Positions 23,932 to 25,229 of a stretch of 64,000 nt of DNA are shown here, piece after piece. Source of the stretch: Spirochaetia bacterium (GTDB taxonomy: Bacteria > Spirochaetota > Spirochaetia > Sphaerochaetales > Sphaerochaetaceae). The stretch spans positions 682,001-746,000 of the forward strand of contig JAKVOU010000001.1 in assembly GCA_022482625.1 (NCBI GenBank), written 5' to 3'. The notes beneath the pieces were generated by a model. It ran no database searches. It was not told the DNA's origin and worked only from the letters and a program-made list of their open reading frames with translations. Every line of letters begins with the position of its first letter. Position 1 is the stretch's first letter. Made by a program: the position numbers and the translations under genes.

Positions 23932-24045
23932 ATAGAATAGCCAGGAGCAACGCTCCCCTACGCCAAGATGCTGTCAGTTTCCCGACGTGCCACATCCACC
24001 TTGGTTCTGATGGCTGCATGATATGCAAGGGCCACTTTACCCTAT
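23932..24045 (-). ncRNA. Structured leader RNA of yhhQ, candidate riboswitch of unrecognised class
   Basis: The minus-strand transcript can form a closed multi-branch fold. P1 is AUAGGGUA (24045-24038) with UAUUCUAU (23939-23932). P2 is GUGGC (24035-24031) with GCCAU (24014-24010), topped by UGCAU (24027-24023) and AUGCA (24019-24015), with a CCU bulge. P3 is CCAAGGUG (24004-23997) with CAUCUUGG (23970-23963), capped by GUCGG-GAAA-CUGAC (23986-23973), a GNRA loop. P4 is GGAGC-GUU-GCUCC (23956-23944). The P2 bulge CCCUU can pair with the yhhQ ribosome-binding site GAGGG, giving a possible pseudoknot. The RNA starts about 6 nt after the expected transcription start. It does not match the preQ1 or other riboswitch consensus sequences I remember. 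Confidence 0.6.
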
Positions 24046-24057
24046 TTCACAAACAGA

Positions 24058-24085
24058 ATTATACTTAACATAATTAAAGCATCAA
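24058..24085 (-). promoter_or_regulatory. Promoter of yhhQ and its leader RNA
   Basis: On the minus strand TTGATG (24080-24085) and TATAAT (24058-24063) are 16 bp apart. The -35 box overlaps the last codons of the upstream NTPase gene. Transcription would begin near 24051, immediately before helix P1 of the leader. Confidence 0.7.
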
Positions 24086-24568
24086 TTTCTCCGTTCCGTT
24101 CCAGGGTACTACCTGTTCAACGGACCAGCCTGACAATCCATAGGCAGCAATCACGGCAGGCATAAATTCATCCCTGACTGCAAGCACAAGCTCTATGCGT
24201 TCATTACGCAACAAAGTACGTAACAGTCCGTCAAATCCAAGTCCCATAGAAAATTCAAGCCGACCGATTTCATCGAGAAATACAGTTGCATGGCCCACCG
24301 CCTGCTGCAGGCTGTCCAAAAGTTCAGCCTGCGCCGAAGCAAAAGCTTCTTCACGTACATAGTAACGGCCAAGCCTGAGACCCGGAGGGCAGTCTGCAAG
24401 ACTGAGATATTGCCTGCCGGTAGCCAAGCTAAGAAGTGTATAGAAACTTTTGTTTTTCCCTCCGATGGAAAGAAAACCGAAACAGGGACCCGTCTCTTGA
24501 GCTGCAAGTTGCCGTAATCTGGTCGTCTTGCCTCCATGCCATGGGGCAGTAACCAGCAGGTTTCCCAT
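24074..24568 (-). CDS. P-loop NTPase, THEP1-like
   Basis: This 164-residue protein begins with a strand and an atypical Walker A, APWHGGKTT at about residues 8-16, and has a Walker B-like TVFLDEIGRLEF near 96-107. The build is that of the THEP1/NTPase_1 group of small nucleotide-triphosphatases. Their cellular role is not established. ATG 24568 lies one base past the stop of the ACT-domain gene; an in-frame ATG at 24604 would sit inside that gene. There is no clear ribosome-binding site, so translation is probably coupled to the upstream gene, implying the two proteins work together. Confidence 0.7.
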   Translation of the reverse strand: MGNLLVTAPWHGGKTTRLRQLAAQETGPCFGFLSIGGKNKSFYTLLSLATGRQYLSLADCPPGLRLGRYYVREEAFASAQAELLDSLQQAVGHATVFLDEIGRLEFSMGLGFDGLLRTLLRNERIELVLAVRDEFMPAVIAAYGLSGWSVEQVVPWNGTEKLML

Positions 24569-24569
24569 C

Positions 24570-25229
24570 TCAGTGTTCGCCCAAAAACGACTGGAGCACA
24601 GCAAAAGCTTTCATGCTGTCTTCGCGAAGTATGACAAACGTCAGCTCGTTCATTGTCGATACGATTTCTATGACGTTGATTACTTCCCATGCAAGCTTTC
24701 TTACAGCTTCATAGACAATGCCTGGTGTCTGGAGAAAACGACCCGAAAACACAAGAGTAAGGGCAACAAGGTCATTCATTTCATTGAGGACATCCTCGCC
24801 TTCTGCAATTTCTTTTACAAGGTCACGATATTTGTCACTCACTGCAACCGAAATCTCGTGTGAGCCAAGAGAAATATTGAGAAAGTCTCCCTTTTCAGTT
24901 GCCACTGTCGCATAAATGCGGCCAAGCTTGGAAAGGAAACTGTCATTCCGAACTACATTGAGATCATAGATATTGGTCTTCATGACAATCTCATAGTCCA
25001 CCTTCGGACGGCTGTTCATTTCTTCCCTGAGCTTGAGCTCATCCCCATAGCGGCGTACAGCCATGACGATTGCACTGTGCTTGACTTCCCTTCCGTACAG
25101 CTTCTCCACTTCACCTTGGATGGAAGAAGCATAGTTGCTGAAAGAAAGCACACCTCTTACCAACATTTCATGGATGAAAGGAGACCTGTCTATGATATGC
25201 TTGACGCATCCGCTTACCGATTCTGCCAT
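24570..25229 (-). CDS. ACT-domain protein of unknown function
   Basis: The 219-residue protein has an N-terminal helical part with a helix-turn-helix look (residues 20-65: SNYASSIQGEVEKLYGREVKHSAIVMAVRRY) and a C-terminal half with two ACT-like beta-alpha segments, the last one VINVIEIVSTMNELTFVILREDSMKAFAVLQSFL. ACT domains usually bind amino acids or other small ligands. There is no kinase domain, although ACT repeats of this kind occur in aspartate kinase. ATG 25229 has GGAGGAA 5 nt upstream. The gene is followed immediately by the NTPase gene, with stop and next start one base apart. I cannot name a pathway. Confidence 0.65.
   Translation of the reverse strand: MAESVSGCVKHIIDRSPFIHEMLVRGVLSFSNYASSIQGEVEKLYGREVKHSAIVMAVRRYGDELKLREEMNSRPKVDYEIVMKTNIYDLNVVRNDSFLSKLGRIYATVATEKGDFLNISLGSHEISVAVSDKYRDLVKEIAEGEDVLNEMNDLVALTLVFSGRFLQTPGIVYEAVRKLAWEVINVIEIVSTMNELTFVILREDSMKAFAVLQSFLGEH

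Follow-up and report, generated by a model that had tools for sequence, protein, structure and literature searches.

On comparative grounds, namely homologous leaders, a match to a model from which it had been left out, and covariation, the leader of a queuosine precursor transporter gene in a Spirochaetia bacterium is a real RNA, structured beyond what chance would produce. The fold that it shares with its relatives is a three-way junction composed of the helices P1, P2 and P3, located directly ahead of the transporter gene. We favor, with a probability of about 0.6, the reading that the leader is a cis-acting riboswitch sensing a queuosine precursor, most likely preQ1, and repressing translation of the transporter. 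We also consider it somewhat better than an even chance that this RNA would constitute a fourth structural class of preQ1 riboswitches, i.e. a nested, non-pseudoknot three-way-junction aptamer found in few spirochaete lineages, at the position at which distant orthologues of the gene carry preQ1-I.

The window, i.e. the whole stretch of 64,000 nucleotides that was analyzed, carries the transporter gene on its minus strand (Table 1). The encoded protein falls within PF02592 (1.5e-51) and matches TIGR00697, 'queuosine precursor transporter', with 221.9 bits (cut-off 51); on these two matches, the gene is what the original prediction had taken it for, and the promoter sequence and the strong ribosome-binding site at the leader end that it had described are likewise present. 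From this promoter, the RNA is expected to start near position 24050. The predicted promoters sit upstream of the conserved core. The product of the gene located upstream (24074-24604, minus strand) shows a weak match to NTPase_1 (PF03266). In many relatives the transporter gene starts directly after a similar upstream coding sequence and has no leader, hence the leader seems to accompany an independent promoter. The same genome also codes for a distant paralogue of the transporter (L114, G000:C1:500113-500691, 34% identity), and the region upstream of this paralogue gave no match to the leader model R2.

Table 1. Transporter gene, expression signals and structural parts of its leader, listed in the direction of transcription (positions of the window)
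Feature	Positions	Strand	Details
Predicted promoter TTGATG-16-TATAAT	24085-24058	minus	10/12 consensus matches
5' bulged hairpin GUGGC-CCUU-GCAU-AUC-AUGC-A-GCCAU	24035-24010	minus	outside conserved core; read from sequence
Conserved three-way-junction RNA (candidate aptamer)	24010-23923	minus	extends into Shine-Dalgarno; R1 match 24010-23928
P1 5' strand UCAGA	24010-24006	minus	pairs with 23932-23928
P2	24004-23963	minus	CCAAGGUG (24004-23997) pairs with CAUCUUGG (23970-23963)
P3	23961-23937	minus	GUAG (23961-23958) with CUAU (23940-23937); GGAGC (23956-23952) with GCUCC (23948-23944); loop GUU
J3/1 joint UCUA	23936-23933	minus	invariant columns
P1 3' strand UCUGA	23932-23928	minus	overlaps first two Shine-Dalgarno bases
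Strong Shine-Dalgarno GAGGGGG	23929-23923	minus	7 nt ahead of ATG 23915; read from sequence
Queuosine precursor transporter gene (QPTR/YhhQ, COG1738 family)	23915-23223	minus	230 aa, ATG start

Transporter orthologues were gathered within the family and beyond it, and the sequences preceding their start codons were compared. A block shared with the window was found in six relatives, three belonging to the same genus (g1; L023, L024 and L025) and three to a second genus (g2; L093, L094 and L095), whose transporter proteins are just ~65-70% identical to that of the window. The RNA is thus carried by seven genomes of two genera in one Sphaerochaetaceae-like family, always directly upstream of the transporter gene. 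Upstream of the gene in most other family members inspected, no such block was present and the start codon closely follows an apparent upstream coding sequence. In the transporter tree, each of the two groups of members is coherent; the union of both as one group is not firmly resolved.

The covariance model R1, trained on the five short relatives only and from which the window leader had been left out, retrieves this leader at 24010-23928 with 42 bits and E = 8.3e-9. It also finds L023, and gives no second match at E <= 1 in the 3.47-Mb genome. Scanning the 139 genomes of the family with R1 returned exactly seven matches at E <= 1.4e-6; each of them immediately precedes the transporter gene, i.e. 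all seven significant matches are associated with a single metabolic function. No additional member was found in 395 genomes of the class or 393 of the phylum, nor in viral contigs scanned for the exact pattern. Of the weaker model matches obtained in scanning the family and the class, three were rejected as they lie within reading frames resembling CinA (L125), L-serine dehydratase (L122) or an ABC transporter (L128), and three other weaker matches (L126, L127 and L129) are low-scoring. On our best reading, the RNA is rare and restricted to few spirochaete lineages.

The search for homologous leaders and the building of a covariance model, both suggested with the original prediction, thus brought six relatives and strong covariation. 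In the seven-sequence alignment, which had been fitted to the structure, 95.2% of cells form standard pairs and double changes occur in 12 of 22 pairs; shifting the partners by 1-3 columns as a control leaves 37-56% of cells paired and double changes in at most 3 pairs. From the five short relatives, aligned by MAFFT without guidance, RNAalifold predicted the same junction, again with double changes in 12 pairs, and P3 alone was recovered from the poorer seven-sequence MAFFT alignment. Double changes affect 4/6 pairs of P1 (helix 1), 5/7 pairs of P2 (helix 2) and 3/5 pairs of helix 4, located in P3. The P3 base helix GUAG/CUAY (helix 3) is nearly invariant, its sole change being a U to C in L025 that converts a G-U into a G-C pair. 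P1 is the weakest helix, with 88% of cells paired. Compensatory changes in a 5' leader structure are therefore seen across seven leaders, and since these represent two genera, few independent events underlie them.

Folding of single sequences is less telling. Energies are unremarkable when compared with shuffled sequences (z = -0.4 for 24046-23912 and z = -1.8 for 24046-23927). The minimum-energy structure of the 135-nt window segment includes the conserved P1, P2 and P3, and shorter segments fold otherwise. In several species, P1 and P2 are not dominant when the longer leaders are folded without constraint, as other pairings compete with them; this behavior without ligand would be expected of a ligand-stabilized switch, and is also compatible with a wrong or incomplete structure. 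Energies so close to those of shuffles are also what could be expected from chance similarity, i.e. from an ordinary leader that merely folds. The sequence comparisons already contradict this explanation, given the independent model match at E = 8e-9, the location of 7/7 members ahead of the same gene and the compensatory changes, and we regard its probability as negligible.

The conserved core measures about 61-93 nt (61 nt in L095 and 66 nt in L025). Across the seven leaders, the joints are invariant and read ACC ... GGCGUAGG ... UGNCUAYUCUAU. Joint J3/1 together with C23962 (J2/3) is likely part of the ligand site, as judged from this conservation pattern. In the window leader, P2 encloses an extra GAAA-capped hairpin, GUCGG/CUGAC (23986-23973), and a CCAAGGUGGAUGUGGCACG stretch in the P2 region is common to this leader and that of L023 only.

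The proposal of a new riboswitch class before the transporter gene therefore survives in part: related leaders covary and no Rfam family matches, and neither its closing helix nor its CCCUU pseudoknot found support. Its P4 is identical to the conserved P3, and its long GAAA-capped P3 equals the conserved P2, except for an extension whose 5' part is common to L023 only. Its bulged P2 lies outside the conserved core; at this position, L023-L025 of the same genus carry another hairpin (GCACNUUGUGC), and the bulged one is not shared by the g2 genus. As for the closing helix, the conserved P1 is formed by other strands (UCAGA with UCUGA, Table 1). In L023-L025, the 5' strand of the proposed helix occupies, by eye, the place of an extended -10 element (TGTTATAGT or TGTTATATT), and in L093-L095 that of a probable -35 hexamer, TAGACA, so that it would fall outside the RNA in these relatives. 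This helix would also compete with the conserved P3 base, and the short UAG/CUA complementarity left in most leaders derives from two inherited sequences only.

The suggested pairing of CCCUU with the Shine-Dalgarno does not exceed what shuffled sequences give (p = 0.37). Any upstream anti-Shine-Dalgarno pairing likewise remains at chance level in the window and in L023-L025. A strong pairing of this type in L093 and L094 (UGUUAUCCUC with GAGGUUAACA) was discounted because its sequence coincides in part with a likely promoter (TAGACA-17-TATCCT with TG) and is probably not transcribed.

P1 itself offers a candidate mechanism. In the window leader and those of g2, the first Shine-Dalgarno bases are part of the 3' strand of P1, and in the g1 relatives this strand stops just short of them; given this location on or adjoining the Shine-Dalgarno, a ligand-stabilized P1 would hinder ribosome binding. 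In our model, preQ1 would bind at the junction, contacting the C of J2/3, the GUAG/CUAY helix with its G/UGN internal loop, and the UCUA of J3/1. Binding would stabilize P1, which in turn would keep the Shine-Dalgarno from ribosomes (translational OFF), so that ample preQ1 would lower import through negative feedback. Without ligand, P1 would open and the transporter gene would be translated.

Covariation and sequence conservation alone do not separate a metabolite-binding RNA from a protein-binding one. The leader could accordingly be a structured site for a repressor or for the transporter system itself, or an attenuator operating without any small ligand, for which the U-rich stretch following P3, flagged as terminator-like, could be invoked. 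We consider this unlikely: as in aptamers, the invariant positions are concentrated at the joints and the internal loop of a junction of several helices, and no other copy was found in the genome. Moreover, the supposed terminator tail is the conserved CUAUUCUAU, which belongs to helices and is no U-run.

If the leader is indeed a riboswitch, its relationship to known classes has to be considered. The Rfam models were run as had been advised, and no known class matched: no family of Rfam 15 reached its gathering score anywhere in the window, and the isolated leaders of the window and L095 gave unrelated weak matches only, up to E = 10. Specifically, neither of these two leaders was matched up to that threshold by the models of preQ1-I (RF00522), preQ1-II, preQ1-III (RF02680) or the purine riboswitch. 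The same search detects preQ1-I upstream of two distant orthologues, L068 (21.4 bits, E = 0.019 over 4227 families) and L065 (14.6 bits, E = 1.2), with matches that stay below the gathering score but are full length and have the expected strand and location. Preq1-I-like leaders, with ACAGUUC ... CUGU followed by an A-rich segment, are seen in L065, L066, L068, L111 and L112. The type I signature consists of UU after the P1 5' strand and UC before the P1 3' strand (PMC11625349); it was recognized by eye only in L066, L111 and L112, and the L111 leader gave no PreQ1 match in Rfam.

Other leaders precede the same gene elsewhere. Those of L103 (G116) and L106 (G077) share a different sequence, GAGGUGACAUA ... 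AUGUCAUG, covering approximately the 75 nt that precede the start codon. Their ends can pair over the start codon (GUGACAU with AUGUCAU), and both lie behind a TGCTATAGT promoter-like element. This leader, which gave no match to R2, is possibly another regulator of the transporter gene. A third shared block occupies the last 70 nt before the orthologue in L091, L092 and L038 (genus g16). It reads about GAAAGGTCTTGTGTTTCTTCGGTCTCTTGCGGTATACCCTTC in L091 and L092 and is similar in L038; it has no clear Shine-Dalgarno and no match to R2.

Given that preQ1 resembles guanine and that purine (guanine) riboswitches, whose ligand is guanine-like, are nested P1-P2-P3 three-way junctions with conserved joints, one might see in the window RNA, which shares this architecture, a very divergent member of the purine type. 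It might similarly be a divergent member of preQ1-I, -II or -III, as preQ1-I-like leaders precede the same gene in relatives. Both versions of this explanation are highly improbable. No Rfam match appears up to E = 10 for the window or L095 with a search that detects preQ1-I in L068 and L065, and the joint sequences and loops conserved here differ from those of purine riboswitches. A stretch, GUGGAUGUGGCACG, which we take to resemble the P2 loop of purine riboswitches, occurs in the window and L023 only and is not supported by Rfam; it was treated as a chance likeness.

The three preQ1 classes reviewed so far are all pseudoknots (PMC11625349), whereas our model is a nested junction with a different conserved sequence. 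Like the window RNA, preQ1-I is associated with genes for queuosine precursor uptake, and also with synthesis genes; its translational versions bury part of the Shine-Dalgarno, and it occurs ahead of distant orthologues of the very same transporter gene (L068 and L065). It is, however, a small H-type pseudoknot with an A-rich loop, while that of the window forms a three-way junction of greater size, without a match to RF00522. PreQ1-II resembles the window RNA in its ligand (as proposed here for the latter), its association with a transporter and the inclusion of the Shine-Dalgarno within the fold. PreQ1-III is bigger than preQ1-I, as is the window RNA, and is also found ahead of a preQ1 transporter gene (queT). 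Both classes differ from the window RNA in being HLout pseudoknots, and neither matches it in Rfam. PreQ1-II has been described as limited to Bacillota, mainly Streptococcaceae and Lactococcus, and preQ1-III as occurring in Ruminococcaceae and metagenomes (PMC11625349). On sequence evidence, the fold of the candidate aptamer differs from those of preQ1-I, -II and -III. In the literature that we searched, no paper was found on a fourth preQ1 class or on a Sphaerochaeta riboswitch.

The proposed ligand is suggested by the genome content of the host. TGT is present in the host, as in 75/75 high-quality genomes of the family, and the host genome codes for a full-length QueA. No QueF and no genuine QueC were found in this genome, the QueC matches being short or weak. 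By the established pathway, bacteria with TGT and QueA that lack QueC and QueF make queuosine only from imported preQ1. Queuosine synthesis in the host would thus need imported preQ1, and the genome context is one in which preQ1 is the salvaged precursor. QueC matches at E<1e-25 occur in two other genomes only, G087 (3.8e-47) and G121 (5.1e-26), which stand alone in the family in having a clear full-length match; G087 is listed with 8% contamination, so its QueC may be foreign DNA. Weak QueF matches in G078 and G079 were rejected because the proteins were read by eye as GTP cyclohydrolase I (FolE)-like.

Members of the transporter family vary in substrate. E. coli YhhQ has been linked to preQ0 (PMC5372724), and in some intracellular pathogens queuine has taken the place of preQ1 as the substrate (PMC11570991). 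A genuine riboswitch responding to preQ0, queuine, queuosine or another compound carried by the transporter is accordingly conceivable, and in our view rather unlikely. The presence of QueA, dispensable to a cell that salvages queuine only, the absence of QueF, without which preQ0 is not convertible to preQ1, and the preQ1-I-like riboswitches of orthologues all argue against it. Because of this preQ1-salvage gene content and the preQ1-I-like leaders, preQ1 is the most likely ligand.

If a preQ1 riboswitch controlling the transporter is indeed what these leaders encode, it would be a further independent RNA solution for the recognition of preQ1, beside the three reviewed pseudoknot classes, and would show riboswitch classes replacing one another ahead of one gene. 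With a core of just about 61-93 nt, it would be an easy test system. Such a riboswitch would also speak in favor of these spirochaetes living on scavenged preQ1.
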